DNA of 64,000 nt from a virus: positions 43,633 through 107,632 of the IMG/VR virus record IMGVR_UViG_3300031957_001682. One strand, 5' to 3'. The notes beneath the pieces were generated by a model, which ran no database searches, had not been told where the DNA came from, and worked only from the letters and a program-made list of their open reading frames with translations. Made by a program: the position numbers and the translations under genes. Below are positions 7,353 through 29,797 of this stretch, piece by piece (the first letter of the stretch is position 1; each line of letters begins with the position of its first letter).

Positions 7353-7362
7353 TTAAATCACC

Positions 7363-11959: not shown

Positions 11960-12436
11960 TCAATCACTTCTTTGCGTAAAAGGATTTGGTGGGTCACTAA
12001 AATCTAAGACTCTTTCTTTAGCATGTTGCGGAGGGGGTGCTTGTGGCATCGTACTTCGAGTCATCTGTCTTTGTTGAGCGAAAGATGCTGGATTGATTGT
12101 ACCGCCGGGCGTTGAAGGTGTGGTAGGTACATCATCACCAAGTTCCGGTGATTTAGTTTCATTCTTTTCTGCATTAGGGTCATTTACATTTCCCATTTGC
12201 ATACGGGCTTGTTGATGTTCTTCTCTCCCTGCTCGCATTCGTGCAATAGGAGTTGAAAATGGTTTACCTGTTTTATCAGTTTCTTTCATCTTCAAAAATT
12301 TCCAAGCGTCACCCATTGGGATTGCTTTCTTTTTGCTGTCCGGGTCTGCTGTTTTTTCCGGCGACTTAGGCGGCTTACCACCAAGTGCAATTACAACAAC
12401 CATGCCTTTCTTTTTCTTTTTATCGTCTTCTTTCAT
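11960..12436 (-). CDS. Disordered virion-arm protein with AWxxLK tag
   Basis: 158 residues, ATGA overlap with the stop of large terminase. A lysine-rich N-terminus, Pro/Thr/Gln-rich middle and no globular domain point to disorder. IPMGDAWKFLK (12290 to 12322) is one copy of the peptide tag found in other virion-arm proteins here. Function unknown; tag and position suggest a virion or head-assembly protein. Confidence 0.65.
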   Translation of the reverse strand: MKEDDKKKKKGMVVVIALGGKPPKSPEKTADPDSKKKAIPMGDAWKFLKMKETDKTGKPFSTPIARMRAGREEHQQARMQMGNVNDPNAEKNETKSPELGDDVPTTPSTPGGTINPASFAQQRQMTRSTMPQAPPPQHAKERVLDFSDPPNPFTQRSD

Positions 12437-13923: not shown

Positions 13924-13927
13924 TGTA

Positions 13928-14758
13928 TCACCGTGTCTTAATATACATGAAAGCGGCGAGTTCACCAATTTCATTTGGTGTCATTTTGTAAAGATTATCG
14001 GGTCCGAGTAAGTCGAATAACATTCCATTAAACGCTTTGGTGGGCATCAATACAGGTCTTGGTTGTCCGGTCACGGGGTCTATGGATGCTTGATACTGCG
14101 CCATCCCCGATGGATTCATTTGTTGTTGAACGGTACTTGCCATATTTGACTGATTCAATACATTGGGAGGTAGTGGTGGATTCATTTGTTGTTCAACGGT
14201 ACTTGCCATATCTTGCTGATTCAATACATTGGGAGGTAATGGCACAGCAGGTGCGGCAGTTGCGGCAGGTTGGGGTAATGCAGGTATGGGTGCGGCAGGT
14301 GCAGATGCTACAGGTGCAGGTACGGATGGTGAAGTTGATACATTTACAAGACCAGTGGATGAAGGTAATGGTACTCCACCTTCATTTGCCGCCATACCCG
14401 GAGCGGGTAATGGGATAGAATTGGGTTTAACCCCGACATGAGAATTTCCTTCAATTTGTCTTGCTGTGAATGCCCCTGTTGGGTCAAGTCCTTGATAGGT
14501 GTACCCTGCTCCAAGTGGAGCGGCTATGTTGCCACCTTGCATTGCATCAGCGGTGCTTAAAGCAGTAGCCCCTAAAGCCGCACCTTTACCAGCAAGTCCA
14601 GCAAGTCCAACCAATCGACCTGTTCTGCTAACTTTGGAACCGGGTTTTGTACCACGACCACGAACCGCATTGAACAAATCCATTGCCGAAGGACTACCTT
14701 GACCCACTGTTTGAAATTGAGTCACATCTGCTTTTACCAAAACTTTGTTGCTCACCAT
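13928..14758 (-). CDS. Low-complexity virion-arm protein with internal duplication
   Basis: 276 residues, rich in Ala, Pro, Gly and Gln. An N-terminal basic part is followed by a small-residue segment (GLAGLAGKGAALGATAL) that could be a glycine-zipper or membrane-active helix, then a Pro/Ala linker. Two 22-residue direct repeats (PLPPNVLNQ..MASTV.QQMN) come from a 66-bp tandem duplication. Directly upstream of TerL. No family; virion protein by context. Confidence 0.65.
   Translation of the reverse strand: MVSNKVLVKADVTQFQTVGQGSPSAMDLFNAVRGRGTKPGSKVSRTGRLVGLAGLAGKGAALGATALSTADAMQGGNIAAPLGAGYTYQGLDPTGAFTARQIEGNSHVGVKPNSIPLPAPGMAANEGGVPLPSSTGLVNVSTSPSVPAPVASAPAAPIPALPQPAATAAPAVPLPPNVLNQQDMASTVEQQMNPPLPPNVLNQSNMASTVQQQMNPSGMAQYQASIDPVTGQPRPVLMPTKAFNGMLFDLLGPDNLYKMTPNEIGELAAFMYIKTR
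14114..14245 (-). repeat. 66-bp tandem duplication
   Basis: Two nearly identical 66-bp units in frame inside the Pro/Ala-rich gene encode two copies of a 22-aa block. The few differences between units suggest a fairly recent duplication. Confidence 0.75.
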
Positions 14759-14759: not shown

Positions 14760-16961
14760 TCACCCCATGTTTGTTTTTATGACTTTGATAATCTTAGCAT
14801 CAACATTGTAGGACTTAGCGATGTTGTGCCAATCTCCCATTGTTTGATTGATTGTCACGACCTCACTTGCGGTTAGCCCGACATGTTTCGCCAGTGCGTG
14901 TGGATTGTTAAGATTACTGTTAATTTTAATCCCCTCGAATCCGGCTTCTTCTTGTTGCATTCGCTCTAATGCTTTCATCACTCGGTCCATTACCGGTAGG
15001 TGTGCATCTTCGCTTCTTAGGTACTGGTCAAGTAATTGCTGTCTTGGGTCGGAAAGTGATTGTTGCGCCCTTCTTTCAATCGGTGTTAAAAATTCATCCG
15101 GTGCTGGACTTGCTCGACCTCCACCACCAGCAACCATCATTTCTCTAAATTGCTGTGGTGTTTGATTTGCAATCTGTGGTCTAACTTGCTGGAACCGTGG
15201 GTCAAGAGGCGTAGCCGGTGGGCCTTGTGGTCTTACCGCTACAGGAGGAAGAGGTGCCGCACCGGAGGGAGGTGGTGAAGAAACCGGAACCTGCGAAAGA
15301 GCGGAAGCAGGGGATTCCGGTGCGACTGTATCACCACTTGGGCGAATTGGCATGGCTGTACTTTCTGCAAAGTCTTCCATAGGGTGTAGGTATGCATCCA
15401 TGTGAGGGTCGAGTGTGGCATCAACTCCTTCTTCGGGATAATCTAAAAATTGCATATTTTTTGCTGGTTCTGTTTTTATGTCACCAATGGGCATTTTTAC
15501 TGGCAAACCCTGTGATTCTGCTTGGTGGTCGGCTAATGCTTCGATAATACCACGAAAACGCTCGACTTGACCCATAAGCCGCTCATCGTATCGTACACCA
15601 AATGCGTTTAACTGCTCACTGTCAATTGAATGATTACTCAAATTACTTCGCTCGGAGTCATCATCACTTAGACCGGACCTGTGAGCGAGTGCCATAAGAC
15701 GGGCGGCAGTGGTGTCTTTTCCTTTGCTACCACCCCTACCGGGTTTGAAATGACGACTTTGTTCATCATAGGACAAACCTTCTTCTCCTTCACCATAGAT
15801 ACCCATGAGGCTATTGAAATGCTTGTTAAAATCACCTTGACCCGGCCTACCAAACAAATACATCATTGCTGGTACATTTGCCATATCTTGAATTAAACTT
15901 CTTCGTAGTTCACTATCTTGAAGAATGACACGAAGTGGGCGTTGAATCATTTCGGGACTCGCTAAAGTGCCCACATTGATTGTAGCGGGTACATCGGGAA
16001 TTGCATCTATGTTGCCCAAAGCGTTTGTAATGGCCCTTTCAGCCATTTGATATAATCCATTTTTGTGTTCCCAACTACCTTTTTTTCCGGCTTTTTGTCC
16101 ACTTGCTTTTGTGTTAGGATAAAAGAAAATGTCCGGTAGGTGGTGAGTAGTTGATTCAGTGTGTACCGCAGTTTGTTCACTGAAATAATCATCGGGTGCC
16201 CTTGACATGTGTTGTGTGCTTATTTGATTCGGATGTTCTTGATATGAAGCATCAACTCGACCTTTAGGTGCTGTTTCACGAGCGTAAATGTAAGGTCTTT
16301 TTACAAAAGTTAAATCCGATGATACTTCAAATGGAACTCCATGTTCTCTTTCAAGAATTTGACCAAGTTCGTGATTAAAAGGAATAGAATATGATTCAAT
16401 AAAACGACCCATTGGGGTATAGTTTTTGTCACCGGGGGTGAAATTTTTGTTAGTGTAAGTGGTAATCAAAGAACCATTTTTGGTTTTTGTTGGGCGTTCG
16501 GAGTGGCCTTCTGTGCTGTCACCCGGAGGTAGCATTCCAGCCCTAATTTTTCTCCACGCCATGTTGTCAAAAGGTGGTAATGCGTGCATTCCATTATTCT
16601 TATCATCATCACCTTTGTGACTTGTATGGTTTTGATTAAACAATTGAATTGCTTTGTTAATCAAATCGACAGGATGTGCTTTGATACCATGTTTTTCTAA
16701 AAACCACCCTAAGCGTGTAGCCGCCGCATCAATACCGTGTTGATAACTTCCCATTGGTGTGTTGTAGTGTAGTTCACCGTGGTCACCCGGAGCAAACTCA
16801 CCTTCAAGAATTTCTCCTTGAGCATGTGCAAAGGCGGGTACATCTTCTTCTGTAGGTGGTCGAAACGCTGTTGCCGGTGGGTTGCGAATCATTGCCGCAC
16901 CCTGTGGGGTAAAATGCTTCATTCCCCATGCTTTAATCAATGGAAAACGAACAGGTATCAT
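14760..16961 (-). CDS. Large hypothetical virion-arm protein
   Basis: 733 residues. No recognised fold. The N-terminus RFPLIKAWGMK (residues 5 to 15) looks like a degenerate copy of the PxxxAW tag found at the N-termini of other genes in this arm. The body is polar; a Pro-rich linker lies at about residues 540 to 590, and a helical C-terminal domain (QLLDQYLRSEDAHLPVMDRV onward) ends in a possible small HTH-like fold. Start ATG overlaps the stop of the upstream gene by 4 nt. Likely a virion or ejected protein. Confidence 0.65.
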   Translation of the reverse strand: MIPVRFPLIKAWGMKHFTPQGAAMIRNPPATAFRPPTEEDVPAFAHAQGEILEGEFAPGDHGELHYNTPMGSYQHGIDAAATRLGWFLEKHGIKAHPVDLINKAIQLFNQNHTSHKGDDDKNNGMHALPPFDNMAWRKIRAGMLPPGDSTEGHSERPTKTKNGSLITTYTNKNFTPGDKNYTPMGRFIESYSIPFNHELGQILEREHGVPFEVSSDLTFVKRPYIYARETAPKGRVDASYQEHPNQISTQHMSRAPDDYFSEQTAVHTESTTHHLPDIFFYPNTKASGQKAGKKGSWEHKNGLYQMAERAITNALGNIDAIPDVPATINVGTLASPEMIQRPLRVILQDSELRRSLIQDMANVPAMMYLFGRPGQGDFNKHFNSLMGIYGEGEEGLSYDEQSRHFKPGRGGSKGKDTTAARLMALAHRSGLSDDDSERSNLSNHSIDSEQLNAFGVRYDERLMGQVERFRGIIEALADHQAESQGLPVKMPIGDIKTEPAKNMQFLDYPEEGVDATLDPHMDAYLHPMEDFAESTAMPIRPSGDTVAPESPASALSQVPVSSPPPSGAAPLPPVAVRPQGPPATPLDPRFQQVRPQIANQTPQQFREMMVAGGGGRASPAPDEFLTPIERRAQQSLSDPRQQLLDQYLRSEDAHLPVMDRVMKALERMQQEEAGFEGIKINSNLNNPHALAKHVGLTASEVVTINQTMGDWHNIAKSYNVDAKIIKVIKTNMG

Positions 16962-18625
16962 CCCATGTGCCCCCGCTTTGAAGTAAGATAACCAGCGGGG
17001 TCAAGTCCTAAACGACTTGAATTGGTTTCAAGATTTTGAGTAGGACCGTCATTCTTCTCATCTTCATCTTCATTCTGTTGCACACCGGCTGGATGCGCTG
17101 GCACTGCCCCTTCTTCAAAAGCCGACGCTGTACCCGCTTTTTTCATATTGGCTTTTTTTCTTTGAAGTTCAATTAACTGCCTCATCAATTGAAGCATTTC
17201 AACACGATTAGCGTGACGATTACCTTTGAGTAAATCACTTTCAGTACGCTCTTCACTCATCATCATTGTTGACGATGGTGCTGGCATACTCGGAACGCTA
17301 CTCATCGGTGGAGCCATCTGTGGCATTTGTGGCATGGCTGGCACACGAGGCATACGAGGCACACGAGGCATACGAGGGCGGCGCATTCTTCGGAGAGAAG
17401 GCTGTCGCATTTGTCCCGATTGACCCGGTAATAGACCAGTTAAACGCCCAGCACCAGTTGGTCCAGCAGTAAACGACCTTGCGCTGTGACGAGCGTGTGG
17501 AGAATATGTGTTGCGAACACCACCAAGAATTTTTTGTGATTCTTGCTGGCCCATGTATTGACGGTATTTTTGTGGGTCTTTACTCATGGGTTGCTTAGTC
17601 GCAATACCACGGTGACTCATTTCAACAGACAAGTGAGGCTTCATCAAACCTGTTTTCTTTCCACCCTTGATACCACGCATTCTTGCTTTAAATCGCTTCA
17701 TGGTTGCACCAACACCACCGCTTTGCCCACCCGGTGGTTTCTTGAATTGTCCAGTTGAAGGGCGGAACTCTCTTCGTTTTTCACGGCGACGACGAGCCTC
17801 TATTGTACCCATTGTGTCACGCTTAAGTAGTGTACTCCAAGCATCAGCCATTGGTTCACTCATGGTAAAACTTGTTTCATCATTAAACGGTACATCAGTA
17901 AAATCACGATATTTACCTTCTATATCATCAAACGGAGGTTGTGCATCATCAACTTGAAAATTATGTAAATCATATAATTTCTCAAAAAAATCTTCACGAG
18001 ATGTAGCACTTGCTAAGTGGTTTATGTCGGGTTGTTGGAAATCATCTGCAAGACCCTCATACAAATGGGGGTTATCTATCTGTTCTTGAATCCAATTATA
18101 CCATTCGGGGTGAACATCATTACGATTTGGCATTTTGTAATCGTGTTTGTATTGATTTTCACCGGGATGAACCGTAGGTTCTTCTTTCAACAATGTACTC
18201 CAAGCACCATCCATCGGCTCGCCTGTTCTTACGGCTGAATTACCCGTACCCATCGCTGAACCTGTACCTGTCTTTGCACCTGTGGCTAAATCGAGTAAAT
18301 GTCCACGACTACCAGCCGGTCCACCTTGAAGCCCTATCTCACGCTCATCATCACGCTTGTTACCGTCATCAAGACCGGGTTCTGTTTCCAATCCCGCCCC
18401 TTGACCTAACCCTTGAGATGGTTTAATTTTGATGTGTTTGATTTCTTTGGCCTTTTTCTTAGCCTCTTCTTCTTTGAGTTTTTTTGCTTCTGCCCGCTTT
18501 TCATTATCTTCGGGTGAAGTAGGGTTGTATTTACCCTCATCTTCATTAGCAGAAGAATACATGTGAGATGATTCACTACGGGGTGCATACATGCGTGTGT
18601 CCGAACCTCGACCCATAACCATCAT
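16958..18625 (-). CDS. Disordered virion-arm protein with two EPMxxAWSTLLK tags
   Basis: 555 residues, highly charged and Met/Pro/Arg-rich. It carries two copies of the shared tag: GEPMDGAWSTLLK at residues 135 to 147 (18185 to 18220) and SEPMADAWSTLLK at 256 to 268 (17822 to 17857). After the second tag a strongly basic region (ARRRREKRREF, MKRFKARMRGIKGGKK) would bind DNA, followed by an MPRVPRMPRVP repeat. Each tag starts a different module, as in the 909-aa protein. Coupled by ATGA overlap to the upstream gene. Possibly a packaged DNA-binding protein. Confidence 0.65.
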   Translation of the reverse strand: MMVMGRGSDTRMYAPRSESSHMYSSANEDEGKYNPTSPEDNEKRAEAKKLKEEEAKKKAKEIKHIKIKPSQGLGQGAGLETEPGLDDGNKRDDEREIGLQGGPAGSRGHLLDLATGAKTGTGSAMGTGNSAVRTGEPMDGAWSTLLKEEPTVHPGENQYKHDYKMPNRNDVHPEWYNWIQEQIDNPHLYEGLADDFQQPDINHLASATSREDFFEKLYDLHNFQVDDAQPPFDDIEGKYRDFTDVPFNDETSFTMSEPMADAWSTLLKRDTMGTIEARRRREKRREFRPSTGQFKKPPGGQSGGVGATMKRFKARMRGIKGGKKTGLMKPHLSVEMSHRGIATKQPMSKDPQKYRQYMGQQESQKILGGVRNTYSPHARHSARSFTAGPTGAGRLTGLLPGQSGQMRQPSLRRMRRPRMPRVPRMPRVPAMPQMPQMAPPMSSVPSMPAPSSTMMMSEERTESDLLKGNRHANRVEMLQLMRQLIELQRKKANMKKAGTASAFEEGAVPAHPAGVQQNEDEDEKNDGPTQNLETNSSRLGLDPAGYLTSKRGHMG

Positions 18626-19302
18626 TCCACCCCCATGTTTGCTTCAAGTTGCTTTTTAATTCGAGTCCATGTTTCCGGGCTTTCTTTACTTAATTCGATT
18701 GACAACACATTGATTGTTTGATTAATTTGTTGTCCGTCGCTTTGTGCGCCCCATTGGTCTTGGAACCGAAGTAGGTCTTTGACTGTTTCTCGCACTTCTT
18801 TATGCAATATAACAGCATCCCTTACGAAGCCATCTTCGTGTACACTCCCCTCATCAAGTAATTCGGAAAGTTTATGATTTAATTTTTGAGCGTTTGAGCG
18901 TAGTAATTCAATTTCTCGACCTGCTGTAAGTGCTACTTCTAACGCCGCTGTTTTTTGCACCAGCGGTTGAAAGTGATTTTTCATGTGACTATACACTACA
19001 CTTTCACTTATTTCAAGAGCCGTAGCAATGGCATCAGTAGTTCCTCCATTGTTAAAATACTCAAATTCGTATTCAGCCCGATTAGGTGAAGCACATACAG
19101 GGCAAGATGGATTTGCCGCCATGTGGTATTCACCCATGTGATTACGATAATGACGGTCAGCGGTATTGGCTCGCCATCCCATGTTTTTATCCATTTCTTT
19201 AGGTGTGATGTGACCTTGTAAGAGTTGTTCTTCTAACTCATCACGGTCTTCATGAATGCACATTCGGCAAGAGCGTTTGACAACTTTATCACCGCCCTCC
19301 AT
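18622..19302 (-). CDS. Putative small terminase / Zn-HTH DNA-binding protein
   Basis: 226 residues. The N-terminal part has two Zn/HTH-like units: CRMCIHEDRDELEEQLLQGH with a helix-turn-helix, then CPVCASPNRAEYEFE followed by IATALEISESVVYSHMKNH, a good HTH recognition helix. The C-terminal half is coiled-coil and helical. Small terminase subunits usually combine an N-terminal HTH with a coiled-coil oligomerisation core, and it is transcribed with the packaging genes. Start taken at 19302 because a longer frame would run into the divergent gene at 19363. A virion-arm transcription regulator is an alternative. Confidence 0.5.
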   Translation of the reverse strand: MEGGDKVVKRSCRMCIHEDRDELEEQLLQGHITPKEMDKNMGWRANTADRHYRNHMGEYHMAANPSCPVCASPNRAEYEFEYFNNGGTTDAIATALEISESVVYSHMKNHFQPLVQKTAALEVALTAGREIELLRSNAQKLNHKLSELLDEGSVHEDGFVRDAVILHKEVRETVKDLLRFQDQWGAQSDGQQINQTINVLSIELSKESPETWTRIKKQLEANMGVE

Positions 19303-19362
19303 GACAGTGCTACGAGTTGCCTTTAGAAAACTGTTATGGTAAATGTAGTGTTCGCAAAAAAC

Positions 19363-19653
19363 ATGTGGAGGGTAAAAAGAGTAGCAGGTGTGCCGCTTAA
19401 CAAAGAAAGTATTCGTAGCCTTACACAAGCCGCTAAGGATGTTGTAAAAGGTGAATACGCACCTACAAATTTAGTGAAAGAAAGACTTCGTATATGTGGC
19501 ACTTGTCCTCACGGTGGTACAAAATGCTCACTTTGTGGTTGTTTTTTGAAGTCTAAAACAGCATTGCTTAACTCGCAATGCCCAATACACAAATGGCCGT
19601 CAGCGAGTGATACGGGAATAAACACCAGTGAGCATAAGGAAACTACCAAATAA
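19363..19653 (+). CDS. Small Cys-rich viral protein on opposite strand
   Basis: 96 residues, rightward within the leftward arm. ICGTCPHGGTKCSLCGCFL and QCPIHKW form a zinc site of the kind found in many short phage proteins (CxxC..CxxCGC..C). Start ATG 19363 fits the usual N-terminus of that family; ATG 19336 is an in-frame alternative. Its 3' end overlaps the convergent 83-aa membrane protein gene by 54 bp. Function unknown. Confidence 0.65.
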   Translation: MWRVKRVAGVPLNKESIRSLTQAAKDVVKGEYAPTNLVKERLRICGTCPHGGTKCSLCGCFLKSKTALLNSQCPIHKWPSASDTGINTSEHKETTK

Positions 19654-19851
19654 TCCTACAAGGTAATAAGAAACGCTGGCTGAATCCATTGTTCCTCCTT
19701 TAAAAATTAAAATCATAAGCATAGTCACAATAATAGAAATTAGTTGCACCATTACCATATCAATTATAATGCTTCGATTTGGATTTAACATATCGAGTGT
19801 AGTAGCGGCAAAGGAAGTTGGAATGTACCCTGTATAATCATATTCTTTCAT
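19600..19851 (-). CDS. Small membrane protein, two TM segments (holin-like size)
   Basis: 83 residues with two hydrophobic segments, about residues 28 to 50 (IIIDMVMVQLISIIVTMLMI) and 60 to 79 (VSYYLVGLFGSFLMLTGVYS). It lies 4 nt after the 204-aa gene. Size and topology would suit a holin or a virion membrane protein, but there is no diagnostic motif and no lysis enzyme nearby. Confidence 0.6.
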   Translation of the reverse strand: MKEYDYTGYIPTSFAATTLDMLNPNRSIIIDMVMVQLISIIVTMLMILIFKGGTMDSASVSYYLVGLFGSFLMLTGVYSRITR

Positions 19852-19855: not shown

Positions 19856-20470
19856 TCACCTCATACCAATAAAACTGCGACCAAGACTACCAAGCCCTCC
19901 GCCGACTTTTTCCATTACACCTTCATTAGCAAGAGCCGCTGAAAGCGCACCACCCATCATAGACTGTTGAGCGAAAGTTGACAGTTGTTGTTGTTCCATT
20001 TCTGTTTGACTTACTTTCTGTGTAGCGGCGGCTTGAAGATTGGTAAATTGTCCCGTCACATTTTCTGCGCTCATAGTTTGCAAATTTGATGGAAGTGAAG
20101 TCACATCCATTTTCATTGTACCACTTTCTTCGTCAATAGTAAAAGTAGCATTACGAAGAACTTCAAGAACACTGAAACTCACAAGGTTGCTAAACATTTC
20201 AACAAGAGTTCCCATTTGTGGGCTGGCAACATATCGCTCAATAGGAGTAATACCTCGTAAAAGCATAATTTGAATTTCAAGTTCACTTGGAGGTGCTACC
20301 GGTTGTTGAGTAAATTGATTTTGTTGACCACCAAACATTCCTTGCATAATAGGGGCTTGACTCACACCCATCATTTGCTGATTAGCCCACGGATTTTGTT
20401 GTGTTGCGGGTGCGCCTAAATTCAAAGCACCGTTATTCATTGGTGTCGCACTTCCGCCTAATCCCAACAT
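19856..20470 (-). CDS. Hypothetical virion-arm protein
   Basis: 204 residues. N-terminal 60 residues are Gln/Asn/Met-rich and likely disordered; residues 60 to 110 form a compact predicted domain (LEIQIMLLRGITPIERYVAS); the C-terminus is Gly-rich. ATG 20470 has a GGTGA site 5 nt upstream and is preferred to the GTG at 20479. Coupled to the upstream 317-aa gene. No family recognised. Confidence 0.6.
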   Translation of the reverse strand: MLGLGGSATPMNNGALNLGAPATQQNPWANQQMMGVSQAPIMQGMFGGQQNQFTQQPVAPPSELEIQIMLLRGITPIERYVASPQMGTLVEMFSNLVSFSVLEVLRNATFTIDEESGTMKMDVTSLPSNLQTMSAENVTGQFTNLQAAATQKVSQTEMEQQQLSTFAQQSMMGGALSAALANEGVMEKVGGGLGSLGRSFIGMR

Positions 20471-20471
20471 C

Positions 20472-21425
20472 TCACTCACCTACCCCAATACTTTCTTGCT
20501 CAAGAGGGTTTTGATTGACTACTTGGGCTACTTGTTGTTGTACAAGTGCTTGAAAAGCCGGTGTTGCTTGTTGTTCTAACGCTAATTCATGTTGAAATAT
20601 ACGCAAATCAAAAGAAACCGTAGTAATGTCATTTTCTCCTGTAATTGGGTTGGTGTAATGATTCACATTGATGCCTTTTGTTTTGCGAGAATCTTTTTCC
20701 AGTTCAGCAAAAAAAGGCTCATATTTTTTCAACATAGTAGGAGTAGGGTCTTTTTTGGTGACAGCCGAAACAGGAACAGTCACAATTGATACACCCTGCT
20801 TGACTCTATCTCGTAGTCGTTTTGGATTTGATTCGTTAATGCGGTCTTCTTCTGCTTCCCACTTAACGAGTAAATGGTATAGATGCATGTGTTCGGGGCA
20901 ATAAGTTCCTCTCATTTTACGACCACTGGTGACTCGCTCTAAAGCCACAAACGCTTCCGGCTCACCTGTCACTGGATTTTGCCAATACATTTCCCAAAGA
21001 CTTCGCCCTGTATCTTCATCGCAAATCTTAGCGTACAAATTATCATATTGAATTAAAGTAGCACAATCACACCCATCGACTACACACACACTTGTTTGTT
21101 TATTGTAGTGGTATTTTCTTCCAAATACCCATCGTAAAGGATTTAAAAGCCCTCGCTTTGAGGGTGTAAGAAGTTTGTACGCTTGCTTAATATCTTTTTT
21201 TCTTGCTTTTTGTGGGTCGGGATGACGACTTGGGTAAAAATTAACTTTAGGAACTTGCAAATTATTTTGACTTGCAACTTTTTGCATTGCGCCTTGTGCT
21301 GTTGCTTGTTCCATTAAAGCGGCATACGAAAGAGTATCATTACCCTGTTGACTTAACGCCATTAAATGTGCTTGGTTTACACTACCGAGATTTGCTTGGT
21401 TTTGTTGACTAAACTGTGGTATCAT
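20472..21425 (-). CDS. Hypothetical protein with Cys/His cluster
   Basis: 317 residues. A Gln-rich N-terminus precedes a domain with VCVVDGCDCA and, 80 residues later, YCPEHMHLYH, which could hold a structural zinc. The rest is mixed and the C-terminus Gln-rich. ATGA overlap with the AbrB-like gene upstream. Not recognised; probably virion-associated because of its operon. Confidence 0.6.
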   Translation of the reverse strand: MIPQFSQQNQANLGSVNQAHLMALSQQGNDTLSYAALMEQATAQGAMQKVASQNNLQVPKVNFYPSRHPDPQKARKKDIKQAYKLLTPSKRGLLNPLRWVFGRKYHYNKQTSVCVVDGCDCATLIQYDNLYAKICDEDTGRSLWEMYWQNPVTGEPEAFVALERVTSGRKMRGTYCPEHMHLYHLLVKWEAEEDRINESNPKRLRDRVKQGVSIVTVPVSAVTKKDPTPTMLKKYEPFFAELEKDSRKTKGINVNHYTNPITGENDITTVSFDLRIFQHELALEQQATPAFQALVQQQVAQVVNQNPLEQESIGVGE

Positions 21426-21604
21426 TGTTTTTCACCTTTGTACATTTTAAGATAAAAACCATTTTGTAAGTCACCGCAAAGTTCCCATTTGATTTTATCA
21501 CCTGCTGATAATTCTAATAATTCTGCCATTACCGCTGGTATGACGGTTCTAACACATTTACTTTTTTTATTCACGGCAATTACAGTTGTAGTTTTGTTTA
21601 ACAT
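21422..21604 (-). CDS. AbrB/SpoVT-like small DNA-binding protein
   Basis: 60 residues. The segment VRTVIPAVMAELLELSAGDK followed by IKWEL fits the swapped-hairpin AbrB/MazE DNA-binding fold common in archaeal regulators. It is encoded 9 nt after the GTPase gene and overlaps the next gene by 4 nt. Likely a transcription factor controlling this or another operon; the target is unknown. Confidence 0.65.
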   Translation of the reverse strand: MLNKTTTVIAVNKKSKCVRTVIPAVMAELLELSAGDKIKWELCGDLQNGFYLKMYKGEKQ

Positions 21605-21613: not shown

Positions 21614-22330
21614 TCAAGTTGTTAATAAGTCAATCATGGTTTCTTCCACATTCCATCCTATTCGTGTAGCCATAAAAGACCTGCGAGTAGGTATGTTTGC
21701 TTTTTGAAGTCGAATTAAATCATCTCGAAATGCATCAAAGATTTTGTGTTCACCAATGCGGTTTTGTTGCCAAAGCATAGCGGCATTTTCATCAAAAAAT
21801 CGGTCGGCTTTGTTAGCCACAAGCATAACTAAACGAGGTGCGTACTTTTTACCCTTCCAACGACTTTTGAAGTTTCTATACCGATATGAGCGATTGATTA
21901 AACTATCAACAAGATACTTGAAGCCAGCAATTTGTTGCAATGCTTCTTCACCACCTTTTATTGCCCTGTCATCAAAAACAAATAAAACGGCTTCAACTTG
22001 TCTTCCTACCATATCGTCAATCCAAAGATTCCAAAACCGTTCTTGTCCTCCTACATCGGATGAATACACCACTCGCTTTTGTCCTTTCCAAGAAATGCGT
22101 TTACGAGTTGCTTTAGGCATCATGTATCGACCAAGTAATTTCATGTGTGAAGTTCGCTCTTCATCACTTATTTCTTCCATTTCACCCGGAGTTGTCATGT
22201 ATCGGTCAAGTGTAGTTTTACCTACCATTGCCGCTCCATAGACACCTACTTTTCTTGGTCGCCAAGAGTTGTATAACATTTGACCATAAAGAGCCGCACC
22301 TACAAGTGCTGAACCTGCTGGGTCAACCAT
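21614..22330 (-). CDS. Arf/Ras-like small GTPase
   Basis: 238 residues with all recognisable G motifs: G1 GAAMVGKT (residues 32 to 39), G3 DVGGQERFW (92 to 100, the Arf/Sar-type DxGGQ), G4 NKAD (173 to 176) and a G5-like ATRIGWNVEE (221 to 230). G2 is not certain. Residues 5 to 22 (AGSALVGAALYGQMLY) form a small-residue hydrophobic or amphipathic helix, comparable in place to the membrane-binding helix of Arf proteins. It is co-transcribed with two membrane proteins just upstream. Expected activity is GTP binding and hydrolysis at a membrane. Small GTPases are rarely reported in viruses. The fold call is strong; the role is unknown. Confidence 0.88.
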   Translation of the reverse strand: MVDPAGSALVGAALYGQMLYNSWRPRKVGVYGAAMVGKTTLDRYMTTPGEMEEISDEERTSHMKLLGRYMMPKATRKRISWKGQKRVVYSSDVGGQERFWNLWIDDMVGRQVEAVLFVFDDRAIKGGEEALQQIAGFKYLVDSLINRSYRYRNFKSRWKGKKYAPRLVMLVANKADRFFDENAAMLWQQNRIGEHKIFDAFRDDLIRLQKANIPTRRSFMATRIGWNVEETMIDLLTT

Positions 22331-22583
22331 TTAACTTCCCCCATATCCAATCTGCAAGATTTTGTACTTTTTTCCAAACCCATTCAACGGTGTTTTCCCA
22401 AAAAGATTCACCTGTGGTTAGTTCCCATAGACTGATTATCAATGCAGTAATAAAACAAAAAAAGACTGTTCTTATCCAACCGATTCCTTTTTCGTAATAT
22501 GTGTCAAGAGTGTTTTGAGTGTGCATTGCACGAAGTGTGGCCTCGGTTGAATCATCAGTAGGGGTTTTGAAGATACGACCCAT
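22323..22583 (-). CDS. Single-TM membrane protein
   Basis: 86 residues with one clear TM segment at about residues 36 to 54 (IRTVFFCFITALIISLWEL) and an aromatic C-terminus. Overlaps the GTPase start by 8 nt and follows the coiled-coil membrane gene by 9 nt. Likely membrane partner of the GTPase module, by position. Confidence 0.7.
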   Translation of the reverse strand: MGRIFKTPTDDSTEATLRAMHTQNTLDTYYEKGIGWIRTVFFCFITALIISLWELTTGESFWENTVEWVWKKVQNLADWIWGKLNG

Positions 22584-22592: not shown

Positions 22593-23123
22593 TCACTTTT
22601 TCTTTTCTTCTTCTTCTTTTATACCAAGATTAATTGGTTGTTTTACTTCTGCTTCATGATTTGGAATACCCGGATTAAATTTTTCAGCGTCATGCTGTGA
22701 AATTAACGACTGTGAACCACCCGGTACACCCCAACTTGGAGGCATTTTACCGGGGTTCATTTCCATCCAGCGCAATTCTTGTTCAAGTTGTGCTTCTTGC
22801 ATACGCATTTCCATATCATTGCGTCGATTATCAAAACTAAGTTGCATTTGGCGGTATCGGTCTTGCCTACTCTTCTCAACTTGTGTTGTTCGTACTCTTT
22901 CTTGCATGTTTTGTTCAAAAAACATCTTAAAAAAGTAATATGCAATACCTTGAACAAAAAATGCCGCCATAGCATAAGTAAAACCATTTAACATTGGTGT
23001 ATCGCTAATTAACCATAATTCTGCATCAAAAACACCAATTGCGATACCTACTAATGCCGATTGAGCCAAAATTAGCCCCATAAGTCGTATTTCTGCGTCC
23101 GAGTCTTGCCTGTTGCCTTGCAT
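22593..23123 (-). CDS. Membrane protein with two TM segments and coiled coil
   Basis: 176 residues. TM segments at about residues 12 to 34 and 45 to 67, then a long charged coiled coil (residues 70 to 125, RQDRYRQMQLSFDNRRNDME) and a disordered acidic/lysine tail. First gene of the membrane/GTPase operon: a TATA-like CTTATATTGG lies at 23150 to 23159, about 30 bp before the start, with ATGACA repeats further upstream. Confidence 0.7.
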   Translation of the reverse strand: MQGNRQDSDAEIRLMGLILAQSALVGIAIGVFDAELWLISDTPMLNGFTYAMAAFFVQGIAYYFFKMFFEQNMQERVRTTQVEKSRQDRYRQMQLSFDNRRNDMEMRMQEAQLEQELRWMEMNPGKMPPSWGVPGGSQSLISQHDAEKFNPGIPNHEAEVKQPINLGIKEEEEKKK

Positions 23124-23302: not shown

Positions 23303-26032
23303 TCAAAGTAAGGTTCCTTTGTCCTTGAAATGCCTCGCTCGGTTGGTATGAGGGTCTTCGGGAACAATAGTGTGCTGGCTGGTGTGGCTCATGTCCGGTC
23401 CACCCTGTCCCATAATGTGTCGTTGTCGGCGTTCACGGTTAAGTTCCTCTCGATACTTCACACGCTCCGGGCTGGACTCGTACTTCTTGTCGTACTCCAA
23501 CTTATGCCGCTTGGCTTCGGGGCTTACACGCTCTTTAAGTAATCGCATAGCAATCTCCATTGGTTCGCCTTGCTGTATCATTTGCGGTTGTTGAGATTGT
23601 AAATGATTCCAATACTCATAGGTATCGGGTCTATGTTGTAGCATTTCATTAACCCCCGTTTGATTTGATTGGTCCGATTGATGTGCACCATATTCATGAG
23701 CATACACTCTTGCTTGATTAGCCAACGCAACTCTTTGTTTTTCAGCATCCATTTCGGCTTGGTTTGTAGGTTTGGTCTTTAATCTTTGTAAAAAAGAGGC
23801 TCCTTGCATATCTGTAGGATATTCGGGTTTTACTTGAGATTGTAATGGCCCATGTTGTTGTTCTGCCCATTCATTTATTTCGGGGTTAATTAGACTGTGC
23901 GTATATTCATGCCCAAGAGTGTTTGCTAATCCTTGTATAGATTCATCACTGTCGTTTATACCACGCACATCAGCCCCAATAAAATCCCCATTTGATTGAA
24001 GTCGTGGTTGAGAGCCACCGGTTGTGTAATCACCTTTATTTTGAATTTCTTGCACAGTATTTTTATCCACTCCACTCATTCGATTCATAGTTTGATTGCG
24101 AGGTATTGATAGCAATGCTTCATTGCTAATATCGGCAGGTGTATAAAATCCCTGCATACCTTCTTCGTCATCACCAATATAGAACTCTTTGAGCAAACGC
24201 ATAGCAATATCCATTGGTTCGCCTTGCTGTATCATTTGCGGCTGTTGTACTTGCGGCTGTTGTACTTGCGGCTGTTGTACTTGCGGCTGTTGTACTTGCG
24301 GCTGTTGTAATGGTAATTGTTGTTGATTTGGGTCTGTTGGTTGTACAACTGGGTTAGGTTGCATGTATTGAGCCATTCGTTGATTATAGTCATCCGTAAT
24401 TTGTTCACGATTTTTCCCCCATCTCATTCTGTATGGCTCTTTAGGTCTAACTTCACCTCTTTGATTTGTTTGTTGAAGATTGGGTGTATCAATTTCTGTA
24501 TTTTCTCTTTGTGCTATTTGCCCTCCTATTGATAAAGCGGGTTGTGACATGGCTGTATTTATCTCATTTTGGTTATTTGTTCTCGCATGTGCTGTGTTTT
24601 CTAATACTGAATTTGTAATGGGTGTATTGGTTAAAAATTGTCTTGGTATATTTCCACCGTAATGTGTTGCATCACTAAAATCAACTGTTTGTCCTTGCGC
24701 TGTTTTAAAATTATGACTTGGGCCTATGAAATTTGGATGGTTTTGGTCGAAAGCGGCTTGTCTTATTGCTAATAATTTAGGTTTGGAGTGTGTACCTCCA
24801 CCATGATGACCCACACTTCTATCAATTGCATAACTAAGTGCTTCCGAAGGATTTGTACTCATGGTGCGGTAATTATCACTATGTGTTTTTAAACCATCTC
24901 CACCCATTATTTTTCTTGCATCATCACCCGTAGTTCCGTGATAAGCAACTACAGGGCCGTAAGGTGAAGGAAAGTCTTCATGATGCTCGCCTAAATTAGT
25001 TTGATATTTAAGCAACCGCATAGCGAGGTCCATTGGTTCGCTTCTATAGAATTGTGTTGGGTTTTTTAATGCACCCGGAATTGCAGTTAATTGGTCATCG
25101 AGTAATTGCATTTGTTCGGGCGAAGTATGTGTTTCATCTAATTCTGCTACACGCCCCGATGGTCCCATAGTTCGTTCCCATTGTTGAAAAGTACCATGTA
25201 ATGGGTCCATACCCCCACCTATGTTTCCTGTTAAATCGTTGAGGTTTTCTGTTATAGAAGAAATTACTTTTCCATCCGGTCCTATTTTTGTTGGTACAAT
25301 ATCTTGGAATGATTTTATACCATAGGCTCTTGCTGTTTGTGGGTCAATTAAAGCACCCGGAATTTCAGCATCCATTATCATTTGGGCAAGTTCACGAGCA
25401 CGATGACGCTGTGCTCCTTCCAGTCCTATTCTTGATGGAGGGGCATCTTTACTTCTTGGTAAAAACATACTTGCGGCTCTTTGAAGGTCATAAAGCATAA
25501 ATGGGTTTTTGTTAAGTCGGCGTACACTGTCTTCTTCTAAATCACCATAAATGATTCCTTCGGGGTCTTGATTTTTACCGTATCTTTCCGGTGTACTTTC
25601 AAAACCATACAAATTTAAAGGCCATGCTCTTTTACTTTCGGGTACATCAACAAATTCGCTACCTTGTCTTGGTGTTAAACCCATTGCATGACTCGGAAAA
25701 ACAAACCTTCCTCCAAGTGGCTCATCAGTCATTATGGTTTCAAGTGGTAGTTCTTCCCCTCGACCCATTTCTAAATTATGGTCCCTAAAACTTGTATTTT
25801 CACGATTGGCAAGTTTTCTTGCTAAATGTAAATTTTTACTTGGGTGGTATTTACTGGTATTTTGTGCAGAAGTTAATCTAAGTGACCTATTTGGAGAGTA
25901 TCTTTGGTGAAAACCAGCCATAAGTTCATCGAATTTTCGCTCATTATACTCACGAATAATTTCATCCCAACGCTCATTTTGGTTTTTAAGAAGGAGGAAA
26001 GCCTGTTCCATTGGCTCTAACTCTCTACGCAT
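23303..26032 (-). CDS. Modular virion-arm protein: ART-like and zincin-like modules, four EPMxxA tags
   Basis: 909 residues. Four copies of the tag EPM(D/E)xAMRLLK or close variants lie at residues 6 to 16, 332 to 342, 605 to 615 and 823 to 833, each opening a new module. After tag 2, VVAYHGTTGDDARKIMGGDG and YRTMSTNPSEALSYA resemble an ADP-ribosyltransferase-type fold (HGT...GL...S-T-A). After tag 3, LGHEYTHSLINPE is a zincin-like HExxH (residues 708 to 712), with a second HEYGAH at 779 to 784. After tag 4 a basic C-terminal module (YREELNRERRQRHIMGQGGP) resembles conserved tails of marine viral proteins. A Pro/Gln repeat separates modules 2 and 3. Probably packaged in the head and delivered to the host; catalytic activities are inference. 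Confidence 0.7.
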   Translation of the reverse strand: MRRELEPMEQAFLLLKNQNERWDEIIREYNERKFDELMAGFHQRYSPNRSLRLTSAQNTSKYHPSKNLHLARKLANRENTSFRDHNLEMGRGEELPLETIMTDEPLGGRFVFPSHAMGLTPRQGSEFVDVPESKRAWPLNLYGFESTPERYGKNQDPEGIIYGDLEEDSVRRLNKNPFMLYDLQRAASMFLPRSKDAPPSRIGLEGAQRHRARELAQMIMDAEIPGALIDPQTARAYGIKSFQDIVPTKIGPDGKVISSITENLNDLTGNIGGGMDPLHGTFQQWERTMGPSGRVAELDETHTSPEQMQLLDDQLTAIPGALKNPTQFYRSEPMDLAMRLLKYQTNLGEHHEDFPSPYGPVVAYHGTTGDDARKIMGGDGLKTHSDNYRTMSTNPSEALSYAIDRSVGHHGGGTHSKPKLLAIRQAAFDQNHPNFIGPSHNFKTAQGQTVDFSDATHYGGNIPRQFLTNTPITNSVLENTAHARTNNQNEINTAMSQPALSIGGQIAQRENTEIDTPNLQQTNQRGEVRPKEPYRMRWGKNREQITDDYNQRMAQYMQPNPVVQPTDPNQQQLPLQQPQVQQPQVQQPQVQQPQVQQPQMIQQGEPMDIAMRLLKEFYIGDDEEGMQGFYTPADISNEALLSIPRNQTMNRMSGVDKNTVQEIQNKGDYTTGGSQPRLQSNGDFIGADVRGINDSDESIQGLANTLGHEYTHSLINPEINEWAEQQHGPLQSQVKPEYPTDMQGASFLQRLKTKPTNQAEMDAEKQRVALANQARVYAHEYGAHQSDQSNQTGVNEMLQHRPDTYEYWNHLQSQQPQMIQQGEPMEIAMRLLKERVSPEAKRHKLEYDKKYESSPERVKYREELNRERRQRHIMGQGGPDMSHTSQHTIVPEDPHTNRARHFKDKGTLL
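24240..24310 (-). repeat. 15-bp tandem repeat coding PQVQQ
   Basis: Four and a half copies of GGCTGTTGTACTTGC in frame give a QPQVQ-type linker between the ART-like and zincin-like modules. Confidence 0.85.
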
Positions 26033-26091
26033 ACGCACCAGTTGGTGGTAAAAAGCGATACCATTTAGAATGCTCGCCCGCTACGAGAGTC

Positions 26092-27609
26092 ATGGGCCGA
26101 CATGTTGCTGTGCGTAAAGCACCTACTCCGGCTGATGCTGGGGGTGCAGTTGCAGGTCGAGCCGCCGGAGGCGGTATAGGTAGTGCCATAGGTGGTGTTT
26201 TAGGTTCTATTATCCCCGGTGCTGGCACTGCGGCTGGTGCTTCTGCTGGTGGTGCAGTTGGTGGTGCAGTTGGTGGTGCAGTTGGAAAAGTTGGTGCTAA
26301 GAAAATTGCTGTTGGAGCCGCTGAAATGGCACAAAATCAAGCCAATGCTCAAGCCGCTCAATCACAACAAACCATGCAGAATAACATTCAAAGCGCAAAG
26401 GACACGGCTCAACAAGCCAAAGACCAAGCCGGTATCGAAAAGGCTTGGAAGTTTCCAGCAAGAATGATGCACCCGGAATTTAAATCATATCGGGATAGCA
26501 TTATTGAGCGGGCTAAAAAAGCACCTCGACAAGATGAAGATTTTCGTCAAAACCAGCATTGGAATGAACGCATGGGTCATAAAGAAGGCAGACCCCAAGA
26601 GGCTCGCTACATTCCAAACCAACACTTTGAACATGAAGATGAAGTACACAACATTACTCCATTTCAAGTTGCTTATGCTACATTGCAACACATGAAAGAA
26701 AATAGGTTAATTGATGAAGACAATCACGATGCTGTAGCATTGCGGGAATTACTTCATACTGACCAACCACACCCCGACCCTAATCAAATGGAAAGTGGTA
26801 TGGCTCACATATTTTCTCCTGTAATGGATATTAGGACTATGAGGGGTAAATCAGCACACGCTCAACCATTTATTGACCCAAAGGGTGCAAAAACACAGCA
26901 TATTTACGCACAAGATGTAGTAAAACCCGATAATCTTTCATATTCATCACAAGAAAAAATTGCTGTGCGACCAAAATCAATTGTAAATGAATATATGCCC
27001 GGTAAAAGAGCAAAACCAAGTGAAGAAGAACTTATTGACAGTTTTATTGACACTCCGGCAAGTAAATTACAAAGAAATTTTGGTATTGAAGACAATAGAC
27101 TTGCAGGGCAAGAATATATTGCTCAAAGAAAATATGAAAAAGAACAAGCCAAACAACAAGCGGCTCAACAGGCTCAACAAGAAGCACAGGCTAAAGAAGA
27201 ACAATTTCAACAACAACCAATAACAGTAAATGATATGGGCGGTGTGTACTTTGTCACAGACCCCGCTTACGGTTATAATGGTGAAATGATGGATTATCAA
27301 CAATTAGTTCAAGGTGGGTATGACAAATATCTTAACAATGATAACAAAAGTGAACCAATGGACTTAGCGTGGCAAATGTTGTTTAAAGCGGGTGTTGAAG
27401 TTCACCACGATGAACCACTGCCGCAAGAGTTTACTCAAGACATTACTACACTTGACCGTCAACACAAAATGGTTCCAACAGAAAACGGCACTATGATTGA
27501 CAATATCAGCCCACACATGCTCCGTACCATTGAACTAATGGCGCAAAATCACAAAGATGATGATACTTTCACACCTAAACCATTTAAAATGCCTACAACT
27601 TTTCATTGA
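26092..27609 (+). CDS. Glycine-zipper protein with tag near C-terminus
   Basis: 505 residues, rightward inside the leftward arm. Residues 17 to 72 are a long glycine-zipper (AGGGIGSAIGGVLGSIIPGA then GGAVGG repeats), a pattern of membrane-inserting or pore-forming proteins, followed by a Gln/Ala-rich coiled coil. A second coiled coil is at about residues 345 to 385. SEPMDLAWQMLFK (27352 to 27387) is a tag copy near the C-terminus. ATG 26092 is preferred over TTG 26011, which would overlap the divergent 909-aa gene. Possible DNA-ejection or pore protein; inference from composition. Confidence 0.65.
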   Translation: MGRHVAVRKAPTPADAGGAVAGRAAGGGIGSAIGGVLGSIIPGAGTAAGASAGGAVGGAVGGAVGKVGAKKIAVGAAEMAQNQANAQAAQSQQTMQNNIQSAKDTAQQAKDQAGIEKAWKFPARMMHPEFKSYRDSIIERAKKAPRQDEDFRQNQHWNERMGHKEGRPQEARYIPNQHFEHEDEVHNITPFQVAYATLQHMKENRLIDEDNHDAVALRELLHTDQPHPDPNQMESGMAHIFSPVMDIRTMRGKSAHAQPFIDPKGAKTQHIYAQDVVKPDNLSYSSQEKIAVRPKSIVNEYMPGKRAKPSEEELIDSFIDTPASKLQRNFGIEDNRLAGQEYIAQRKYEKEQAKQQAAQQAQQEAQAKEEQFQQQPITVNDMGGVYFVTDPAYGYNGEMMDYQQLVQGGYDKYLNNDNKSEPMDLAWQMLFKAGVEVHHDEPLPQEFTQDITTLDRQHKMVPTENGTMIDNISPHMLRTIELMAQNHKDDDTFTPKPFKMPTTFH

Positions 27610-27617: not shown

Positions 27618-27734
27618 ATGGAATGGCGTTATTGGGCTGATGCTGTACTTGCTGTTTGTTTAATTCCTATTTTACTCATTGCAATAACGGTACTTTATGT
27701 TCCTTTTCGTTTAATGCAATTTGTTGTGCGATAG
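27618..27734 (+). CDS. 38-aa membrane peptide
   Basis: 38 residues, nearly all one TM helix (ADAVLAVCLIPILLIAITVL). GAGGG lies 5 nt before the ATG and the gene follows the glycine-zipper gene by 8 nt. Its end overlaps the convergent lyase gene by 59 bp. Small size keeps confidence moderate. Confidence 0.5.
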   Translation: MEWRYWADAVLAVCLIPILLIAITVLYVPFRLMQFVVR

Positions 27735-28521
27735 TTGATGCAACTTTAAGTGTGTCAATGCACACACCGGTTTCAAAACCCCATACATTAAGATGCAATA
27801 CCAGTGTTTCGGTTGACAAGTTTGCTCCACTATTGTCAACAAACGGACAACCGCCGAGTCCACCGATGCTTGAGTCAAACTCACGAACACCAGCCATAAG
27901 ACCCGCACGAATTAGTTGCAATGCTTTTTCTTCGTCACCTTTGTGATGTAAATGCAATGCGGGAGTCATACCTTCGAGTATAGCCATCTCGGACCACAAA
28001 TGTACCTCTTCTCTTGTTCCTACCCCCACTGTATCAGCAAACACTACAGTATTGCCAAACATTTTTGCATCTTTAATGCACGATTGCATGGTTAATGGGG
28101 AAACTTGACCACTGAATGGACTACCAAACGCCATGCTGATGTACACACGCACATTTTCCTTTGGTGTTTTATCCAAGAATGTTTTGTACATCAACACAAG
28201 TTCACTTCGGGTTTTTCGCATGTTTTTCATGTTGAAGGTTTCACACGGGCTAATGACTATGTTGATTTTTTTAGCACCAACAGCAATGGCTCGGTCAAAA
28301 CCACGCTTGTTCATGACAAGCGCACCGCCACGCTGATACACTTTTTCAGCATCAGCCATTTGCGGCACAAGTTTTGGGTGTGCAAAACTAACTTCTTCAA
28401 TTTCTGTCAAGCCAGCGTCGTATAATGCATCAATAAGTTCGGTTTTTTTAGAAGTGGGTATTGGAAATTTAAGTGATTGCAAACCGTCACGAGGGCCAAC
28501 CTCGTACACGGTCACTTTCAT
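27676..28521 (-). CDS. HMG-CoA lyase-family enzyme (DRE-TIM metallolyase)
   Basis: 281 residues, near the normal length of about 300. HMG-CoA lyase splits 3-hydroxy-3-methylglutaryl-CoA into acetyl-CoA and acetoacetate with a divalent metal. Family residues are visible: VGPRDGLQ (R11, D12), IEEVSFAHPKLVPQM (E42), ADTVGVG, metal ligands H190 and H192 in LHLHHKGD, and the active-site loop GLGGCPF (C225) with N234 and E238. The Asp after that Glu is Thr here. All known catalytic positions appear kept, so it is probably active. ATGA overlap with the upstream membrane-protein gene shows it belongs to the virion-arm operon. Related aldolase-type lyases cannot be excluded. Confidence 0.88.
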   Translation of the reverse strand: MKVTVYEVGPRDGLQSLKFPIPTSKKTELIDALYDAGLTEIEEVSFAHPKLVPQMADAEKVYQRGGALVMNKRGFDRAIAVGAKKINIVISPCETFNMKNMRKTRSELVLMYKTFLDKTPKENVRVYISMAFGSPFSGQVSPLTMQSCIKDAKMFGNTVVFADTVGVGTREEVHLWSEMAILEGMTPALHLHHKGDEEKALQLIRAGLMAGVREFDSSIGGLGGCPFVDNSGANLSTETLVLHLNVWGFETGVCIDTLKVASTIAQQIALNEKEHKVPLLQ

Positions 28522-28718
28522 TCAATTCCCTTCCTCATACCGTTCCAGCACCCTTCTTCCAATTCTTCTTTAGTAGAAAAGTAAATTACATCACTACCGA
28601 GGTCATCAAATAAAAACCATACAAAAGCAAAACCCGCAATAAAAGCAAGTCCAAAAAAAAGCCACAAACTCATGTTGTAAGACAGTGCGGTGTAGAAATT
28701 AAACCTTTCGCTAATCAC
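28518..28718 (-). CDS. Single-TM membrane protein
   Basis: 66 residues with one TM segment at about residues 16 to 38 (MSLWLFFGLAFIAGFAFVWF) and a charged C-terminus. GTG start overlaps the upstream stop; an internal ATG at 28673 would remove the first 15 residues. Translationally coupled to the HMG-CoA lyase, so the two may act together at the membrane. Confidence 0.6.
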   Translation of the reverse strand: MISERFNFYTALSYNMSLWLFFGLAFIAGFAFVWFLFDDLGSDVIYFSTKEELEEGCWNGMRKGIE

Positions 28719-29659
28719 TGTCCACCAATAAATGGCGAAGTGCTTCTTGCGGCTCGGCCTTGCATACGAGGTGTGACTCTTGGCTCATCCATTTGTCCAC
28801 GCTTGTTTTGACGAGGACTTCCTCTTAAGTTTGTTGAAGCAATGTTATGTGCCGCTGGATTGTTTTCATGAAGTGGTTCATTTTCATATTCACTCTCTAC
28901 ATCGTCATCATACATTTGATTTAGGTCAAAAATACTTCCGCCCTCATCGTATGTTCTATCGACTATATCCGGCTTACCCGCTTTACGACCTGCGCCAGCG
29001 GCCCAATCATGCAAACTATTTTGTAAGTGTTGAGTTGTAACGGGTTTTTGAGTGAATGGGTTTTCAAATGGGCCTAATCGGTTTAAATGACCTACATACT
29101 CGTCATGCCAATCGGGGTCATGTGAGGCCATTTCATTACTTATGTCATCACTACCAACAGGAGGTCTGCCGGAACTTCCAGCCCGGCCTTCGTTTGGGGC
29201 TGGACCCCTGCCGCCAATTGAACGACTCATAGGCATACCTGTTTCATCCATTTCCGGCATACCCATTGCATCCATTTCATCGGCTTCGGGTTGTTGACCC
29301 ATGCGGGCAAGAGTTTGTCGGTCAAGGTCGTCTTGTAATCTTTCAAAGTGACTTTCTTCACCTTCATGACCCATAGCGTTAATGAGTTGGTCCTCTATTT
29401 CCTTTTGATTGAGCCTTTGGTTATCTAAAAATGCCATAGCGTCAGCCATACTGTTAATATGTGGAGTTTGAGTACCCGCCATTTCAATTTCATTTAATGC
29501 ATGTTTTTGTCTGCTTGCGGCATCAACACGCCTATCAGTCAAATCTTGTGGACTCAAACTTCTTGCAGGGTTATCGCCGTCTATGGTTGGTGGGGGTAAA
29601 TTTAGTTCGTGACCACGCTGTTTCAATAGCATCCACGCTTGATTAAAAGGGGCGACCAT
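28715..29659 (-). CDS. Tagged, mostly disordered virion-arm protein
   Basis: 314 residues. The N-terminus APFNQAWMLLK (29621 to 29653) is a tag copy. The rest is polar, Asp/Glu/Met/Pro-rich and probably disordered, ending in a basic Arg-rich tail. No domain recognised. The tag at the very start is comparable with the next upstream gene. Confidence 0.65.
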   Translation of the reverse strand: MVAPFNQAWMLLKQRGHELNLPPPTIDGDNPARSLSPQDLTDRRVDAASRQKHALNEIEMAGTQTPHINSMADAMAFLDNQRLNQKEIEDQLINAMGHEGEESHFERLQDDLDRQTLARMGQQPEADEMDAMGMPEMDETGMPMSRSIGGRGPAPNEGRAGSSGRPPVGSDDISNEMASHDPDWHDEYVGHLNRLGPFENPFTQKPVTTQHLQNSLHDWAAGAGRKAGKPDIVDRTYDEGGSIFDLNQMYDDDVESEYENEPLHENNPAAHNIASTNLRGSPRQNKRGQMDEPRVTPRMQGRAARSTSPFIGGQ

Positions 29660-29683: not shown

Positions 29684-29797
29684 TTAACGATTAAGAAACA
29701 TTTGATTATTCAATGTGATATAAGACCACGAAATAAACACAACCACTAAAAGGGCCAATGCTAATGCGTCACTGCGGGTTATTTCCTTGCCTTTCAT
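29684..29797 (-). CDS. 37-aa membrane peptide
   Basis: 37 residues: a short basic N-terminus (MKGKEITRSD) and one TM helix (ALALALLVVVFISWSYITL). Overlaps the 3' end of the 342-aa gene by 29 bp, which is compatible with coupling. Confidence 0.5.
   Translation of the reverse strand: MKGKEITRSDALALALLVVVFISWSYITLNNQMFLNR

Follow-up and report, generated by a model that had tools for sequence, protein, structure and literature searches.

Arf-like small GTPases are familiar mainly as switches of membrane traffic in complex cells, and we know of no settled account of the route by which tailed archaeal viruses exit from their hosts. To form vesicles, Haloferax requires ArvA (OapA), a small GTPase which has a helix at its N-terminus and is encoded in the archaeal vesiculating operon ArvA–ArvB–ArvC (PMC10927574). 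The Magrovirales (Aoguangviridae, Apasviridae) are viruses of Poseidoniales with genomes of approximately 108 kb in two opposed gene clusters, for which PolB, a clamp loader and an HMG-CoA-lyase-like gene, the latter reported for Aoguangviridae, have been described (PMC10768690, PMC12999244).

The window analysed here is a stretch of 64,000 nucleotides (positions 43,633 to 107,632) of the 107,632-base IMG/VR virus record IMGVR_UViG_3300031957_001682, and coordinates are those of the window unless a relative is named. Its virus resembles the Magrovirales in genome size, opposed gene clusters, PolB, clamp loader and HMG-CoA-lyase-like gene (27676-28521, minus strand, next to the late operon; Pfam HMGL-like, E 3e-19), and the assignment to the Magrovirales rests on these shared features. 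These two accounts of the Magrovirales mention no GTPase (PMC10768690, PMC12999244), in contrast to the virus of the window, which encodes an Arf-like small GTPase of 238 aa (21614-22330, minus strand). Nor was a GTPase mentioned in the Poseidoniales virus literature searched, though one may be annotated in PMC11706807, PMC5434244 or supplements.

A core gene of the late operon

An earlier note on this DNA, made from the sequence alone, had placed the GTPase in a tailed archaeal virus, and the genes of the record bear this out. The late genes lie on the minus strand, among them the large terminase subunit (TerL; 12433-13974; PHROG 38, E 3e-62; Pfam Terminase_6C) and the portal protein (7763-9550; PHROG 18178, E 1e-67; Pfam Phage_portal), the latter co-directional with the GTPase module. 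The plus strand carries PolB (60244-62634), which among isolated phages is closest to the PolB of haloarchaeal tailed viruses, as well as a clamp-loader-like AAA protein and an SNF2 helicase.

TerL served as the anchor of the core-gene test, a PolB-anchored presence test being hampered by the fact that most contigs are fragments. In all 36 loci whose upstream sequence extends for 9.9 kb or more, the GTPase was found 7.8–9.9 kb upstream of the terminase. As these loci were drawn from the 80 closest among 248 relatives of the terminase, the count applies to this virus group and not to magroviruses as a whole. The GTPase is a fixed core gene of the late operon of this group of tailed archaeal viruses. 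Related IMG/VR stretches numbered 125 in a single-sequence scan and 216 in a profile scan, and the earlier description of such a gene as very unusual has to be amended, since it belongs to the core of a virus group with more than 200 related stretches and does not represent an isolated acquisition. With a dN/dS of 0.05–0.10, the lowest or near-lowest in the module, the gene is under strong purifying selection.

A short peptide motif, approximately (E/G/A/I)P(M/F)xxA(W/F/M)xxLLK, is present in 10 copies in six proteins of the window, compared to a mean of 0.005 after shuffling. Five of these proteins are encoded on the minus strand (11960-12448, 16958-18625, 23303-26038, 28715-29659 and 29769-30797) and one on the plus strand (26011-27609). 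The motif recurs in several related loci, is absent from the divergent group, and could serve these proteins as a shared tag for targeting or cleavage. Two divergent relatives, L214 (16653-17474) and L165 (18196-19062), encode proteins that are serine-recombinase-like by their N-terminal sequence, with tRNA-Arg genes nearby, and for these an integrating or temperate life style is possible; magroviruses have been described as being without integrases (PMC10768690, PMC12999244).

GTPase motifs and predicted structure

The minus strand at 21614-22330 is an ORF with exactly these bounds in the ORF list of the window; the plus strand of the same interval is full of stops. The encoded protein, examined in alignments A1 and A3, contains G1 as GAAMVGKTT (residues 32-40, fitting the P-loop pattern GxxxxGK[ST]), G3 as DVGGQE (residues 92-97), G4 as NKAD (residues 173-176) and a G5-like motif, MATRIGW (residues 220-226), directly after the predicted strand b6. 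At the G5 position close relatives read MATRIG, and divergent ones ISAQHG, SSQHG or ISALHG. Both the order and the spacing of the motifs agree with the predicted strands b1 (26-32), b3 (84-94), b5 (167-172) and b6 (215-219).

Throughout alignment A3, which comprises 21 divergent members with identities down to approximately 31–32%, Y31, G32, G37, K38, T39, T40, L41 and D42 are invariant, as are R59, T60, H62, D92 and G95 in switch I and G3, W103, D106, M107 and R110 in switch II, and N173, K174 and D176 in G4. The R59-T60-x-H62 element lies in a long switch I region, and its threonine is a candidate for the Mg2+-linked G2 threonine, in a part of the protein where the confidence of the model is low. 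Both switches are conserved as strongly as the P-loop, as expected for a switch with a fixed partner. Motif variants were also tabulated for 120 distinct homologous proteins, where the P-loop is retained, G4 reads NKAD, NKMD or NKSD in every protein, and a simple DxGG/DxAG pattern for G3 matches all except two (118/120); retention on this scale argues that the motifs are not due to chance. The protein presumably binds and hydrolyses GTP. The fifth residue of DxGGQ varies (Q in 69, E in 29, D in 17 and H in 3 of the 120), and as the catalytic-type Gln is replaced by E, D or H in approximately 40% of the homologues, hydrolysis could be slow or partner-dependent.

In the AlphaFold model (pLDDT 74.5, with low values around the P-loop and the first switch), strands and helices follow one another as in a Ras-like G domain, with an additional helix at the N-terminus. 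A Foldseek search against the PDB yielded 979 matches at E<=0.001, the 50 best of which were all Rho/Rac/Rab/Rheb-type GTPases (top match E 8e-8, probability 1.00, TM-score by target approximately 0.5–0.6), the rank order of such matches being a weak guide to subfamily. When viral models (BFVD) were searched, the best matches were giant-virus Ras/Rab GTPases. Taken together, the predicted fold and the motif conservation mark the protein as a Ras-superfamily GTPase, as the earlier note had read it from G1, G3, G4 and the G5-like motif, and the structural placement with packaging or dynein-like ATPases that would have spoken against this reading did not occur. An N-terminal hydrophobic helix had likewise been proposed; a helix is indeed predicted, at residues 4-23, but it is only moderately hydrophobic (best 19-residue Kyte–Doolittle mean 0.99), and with a low amphipathic moment of approximately 0.1–0.3 it is not clearly amphipathic.

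Affinity within the Ras superfamily

The window protein gave no match to Pfam Arf (PF00025) at E<=1, and so did not reach the curated cut-off. Its Pfam matches were weak (Roc, E 0.0036), and a single relative, L179, passed the Arf cut-off (24.9 vs 22.3 bits). A profile built from the 21 members of A3 matched, at E 1.2e-4, PDB entry 8oun ("GTP-binding protein"), which we take to come from Asgard archaea and to be of Arf type, followed by ARL8 (E 0.004–0.008) and Rab33B (E 0.013). Profile–profile comparison yielded scores of 103–114 for Arf, 65–69 for Ras/Rab, 54–63 for Rag (Asgard sets) and 54–57 for ArvA, a ranking in which Arf is favoured by a set larger and more varied than the others; with the Arf set split in two, the subgroup profiles scored 71 and 95.

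In a first tree, calculated without ArvA, the virus clade (100/100) joined an Asgard Arf subgroup at 95/95. The support for this subgroup was lost when ArvA was added, and the best tree with ArvA joined the virus and ArvA clades at 75/84, at a point where long branches meet. Constrained tree tests rejected none of the groupings with Arf, the Arf subgroup, Ras or Rag (p-AU 0.16–0.40, with 0.36 for virus plus Arf). The phylogeny suggested as a check delivered a firm virus clade and left the Arf, ArvA, Ras and Rag placements side by side. Since the addition of ArvA removed the tree support, a firm Arf claim was withdrawn, while the profile comparisons and PDB matches, which favour Arf, make "Arf-like" the description that fits best, in the sense of a sequence affinity and not of a proven Arf. 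Of the original label, Arf/Ras-like, membership of the Ras superfamily with Arf-type proteins as nearest affinity stands, but placement in the Arf family proper would go beyond what the Pfam cut-off and the tree provide.

Composition of the late module

The neighbourhood of the gene was compared across 179 fetched GTPase loci, some of which overlap as they stem from repeated scans. Directly upstream of the GTPase lie the two membrane proteins of the operon predicted from the sequence, all on the minus strand. The first (22593-23123, 176 aa) consists of hydrophobic stretches, one with a hydropathy window over the threshold and a second weaker, followed by a long, charged, coiled-coil-like helix; it has homologues in 165/179 loci (alignment A5) and is a probable membrane partner of the GTPase. 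The second (22323-22583, 86 aa) is a small single-TM protein by hydropathy (alignment A6), with homologues in 164/179 loci, and the end of its gene overlaps the start of the GTPase gene by 8 bases. A third, small membrane protein of 83 aa is encoded downstream (19600-19851, minus strand; hydropathy 2.73 at residue 32; 164/179 loci).

Between the GTPase and this third membrane protein, on the same strand, are the genes of a small AbrB/MazE-like accessory protein of 60 aa (21422-21604; weak Pfam match, E 0.03; homologues in 64/179 loci), a helical, Zn-finger-like protein of 317 aa (20472-21425) and a Q/M/G-rich helical protein of 207 aa (19856-20479; alignment A7; 173/179 loci). The 317-aa protein has conserved Cys and His residues (C114 and C176-P-x-H179), and a homologue is present at all 179 GTPase loci, just downstream of the GTPase in those examined. 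Its model (pLDDT 76) had no fold match, and it is a candidate effector or regulator of the GTPase. Further towards the terminase lies a Cys-rich protein with an HTH-like segment (18622-19428, minus strand; weak HTH matches; 173/179 loci), possibly the small terminase subunit. The module genes in the window are closely packed, with gaps of 9, −8, 9, −4, −8 and 4 bases.

No module protein other than the GTPase has a known fold or family, so that it is the position of the module and its membrane proteins that carry the case for a role in egress. No Pfam match to roadblock, ArvB (OapB, PF09846) or ArvC-type proteins was obtained among the module proteins scanned. Inside the late operon, but on the other strand, a small CxxC-rich ORF (19336-19653, plus strand) has homologues in 86/179 loci. 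In the divergent relative L165, a gene that is thermosome-like chaperonin by sequence (7095-8633) is found close upstream of the GTPase module.

Distribution and hosts

A search of 84,980 species genomes located the GTPase family on five contigs. One is a 106-kb contig of the Poseidoniales single-cell assembly AG-422-I20, with 36% identity, which encodes the same GTPase sequence as the IMG/VR contig L170. The other four belong to MAGs labelled Maricaulis, Asgard archaeon, Cytophagaceae and Flavobacteriales and display the same viral gene order, for which reason they were taken as mis-binned virus contigs and not accepted as true genes of those organisms. A further relative, L179, was found in a second genome of the Poseidoniales order, on a 128-kb contig with the same gene order. 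Neither the 50,697 phage records (isolated phages) nor the PHROGs phage families contained a homologue, and viral contigs searched with L165 and L179 alone gave no matches. In this analysis the family was virus-specific.

The copies in AG-422-I20, with its GTPase identical to that of a viral contig, and in another genome of the same order point to Poseidoniales, abundant ocean archaea, as hosts of these viruses. Among 244 genomes sampled from the order of this single-cell assembly (G001), the family was present in two, one of them G001, and both copies lie in the same viral synteny; recent capture from the host is not backed by this pattern. In 60 genomes of this order no Arf match reached E<=0.001, and 40 genomes searched for Roc-type matches gave none over the cut-off, while Asgard genomes, used as a positive control, gave many matches. 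The sampled host genomes are without Arf/Ras-type GTPases. OapB (ArvB) was detected in 72/194 genomes of the phylum and in none of those listed from the order sample, which suggests that the order is also without the known vesiculation system.

Proposed role

The preferred reading, to which we assign a probability of roughly one half, is that the protein is a virus-specific, strongly diverged Arf-like GTP switch which acts at a membrane in virion assembly or exit and is fixed in the late operon. Action at the membrane, in line with the membrane-remodelling or egress-control module that the earlier note had suggested, is an inference from the conserved switch, the adjoining membrane proteins and the late-operon position. 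The GTPase would be a late GTP-dependent switch in tailed viruses of Poseidoniales, recruited to the host cytoplasmic membrane by the helix at its N-terminus together with the membrane proteins of the module. In its GTP form it would engage the Zn-type protein, co-encoded at every locus, through the invariant switch regions, and would in this way direct the assembly of virions at the membrane or their exit there. A stronger version, which we regard as a doubtful possibility, is that Arf-like GTPase, membrane receptors and a dedicated effector form a self-contained, GTP-switched membrane-remodelling machine for non-lytic or controlled exit from hosts without such a GTPase; viruses would then be a setting, beyond Asgard archaea and eukaryotes, in which an Arf-type membrane system evolved.

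The co-directional position of the GTPase upstream of the terminase and portal cluster in every locus tested would also suit a timing or assembly factor, a chaperone-type switch for capsid assembly or DNA packaging, with the membrane proteins as independent late genes and their proximity as coincidence. This is unlikely, however, as the nearest and partly overlapping neighbours of the GTPase are membrane proteins, conserved with it in approximately 165 of the 179 loci, and the PHROGs phage families hold no comparable GTPase. Membrane partners are also compatible with a host-takeover or exclusion factor, in which a membrane-anchored switch dispensable for virions would act on the envelope, division, vesicles or superinfection, and the virus may impose a function on hosts whose sampled order has no Arf/Ras-type GTPase. 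Takeover genes usually vary between relatives and sit in early regions, whereas here the gene keeps a constant late-operon position in 36/36 loci, and we consider such a factor quite improbable.

Two further alternatives concern the identity of the protein. That it is a viral relative of ArvA and not of Arf, acquired from an archaeon and then reshaped, is rather unlikely. The virus family and ArvA have in common an N-terminal layout (helix, basic stretch, (V/I)GIYGP..xGKTTL, EIP..xR), a local profile match of 42–50 columns (31 ArvA sequences), a similarly long spacing from P-loop to G3, and the join at 75/84 in the best tree. Yet this join brings long branches together, the whole-domain profile score is approximately half of that for Arf, G3 reads DxGG in the virus family and DTPG in ArvA, and neither ArvB nor ArvC adjoins the GTPase by Pfam. 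The P-loop taken by itself would also permit a protein other than a GTPase, for instance a packaging or dynein-like ATPase, but this is very improbable given that the guanine-specificity motif NKxD is invariant, that the G5-like motif reads SA or SS in relatives, and that the predicted structure matches Ras-superfamily proteins.

With its fixed place in the late operon, next to membrane proteins, the GTPase offers a concrete, testable candidate for a component of viral exit. The presence of Arf-like GTPases as core genes in an abundant group of marine archaeal viruses, with sampled hosts that are without them, is relevant to the distribution of this switch family and to its possible movement between viruses and archaea.

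Comparison with known systems

From MglA-type GTPases, which have a roadblock (MglB-like) partner, the virus protein differs in its partner genes, none of this kind being found by Pfam among the module proteins scanned. The GTPases of giant viruses (Edafosvirus, Klosneuvirus and Pithovirus relatives) are likewise virus-encoded members of the Ras superfamily and provided the best BFVD matches; they are encoded by large DNA viruses that infect eukaryotes and carry Rab/Ras/Ran-type annotations, whereas the present family is found in tailed archaeal viruses, adjoining packaging genes.

With the Arf/Arl family (PF00025; PDB 8oun, 8oum) the virus GTPase has in common a Ras-like G domain, a DxGGQ G3 and a helix before the P-loop, and Arf is the family to which its sequence profile has the best affinity, with one relative over the Pfam cut-off. 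It differs from Arf in a longer switch I, K38 and D92 being 54 residues apart where the corresponding span in human Arf1 is 37 residues, in a G3 Gln that is not fixed, and in being encoded by a virus with partner genes of its own.

ArvA differs from the virus family in G3, which is DTPG in all ArvA sequences fetched as opposed to DxGG/DxAG, and the virus module holds TM proteins in place of an ArvB or ArvC homologue. Both are nevertheless small GTPases with an N-terminal helix and a long switch I, with similarity in GIYGPxxxGKTTL and EIPxExR that is local and not domain-wide, and an operon partner with possible zinc ligands in the virus module has its counterpart in ArvC, a Zn-ribbon protein. 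By analogy, the vesicle-driving ArvA would be a precedent for a viral GTPase that acts at a membrane.
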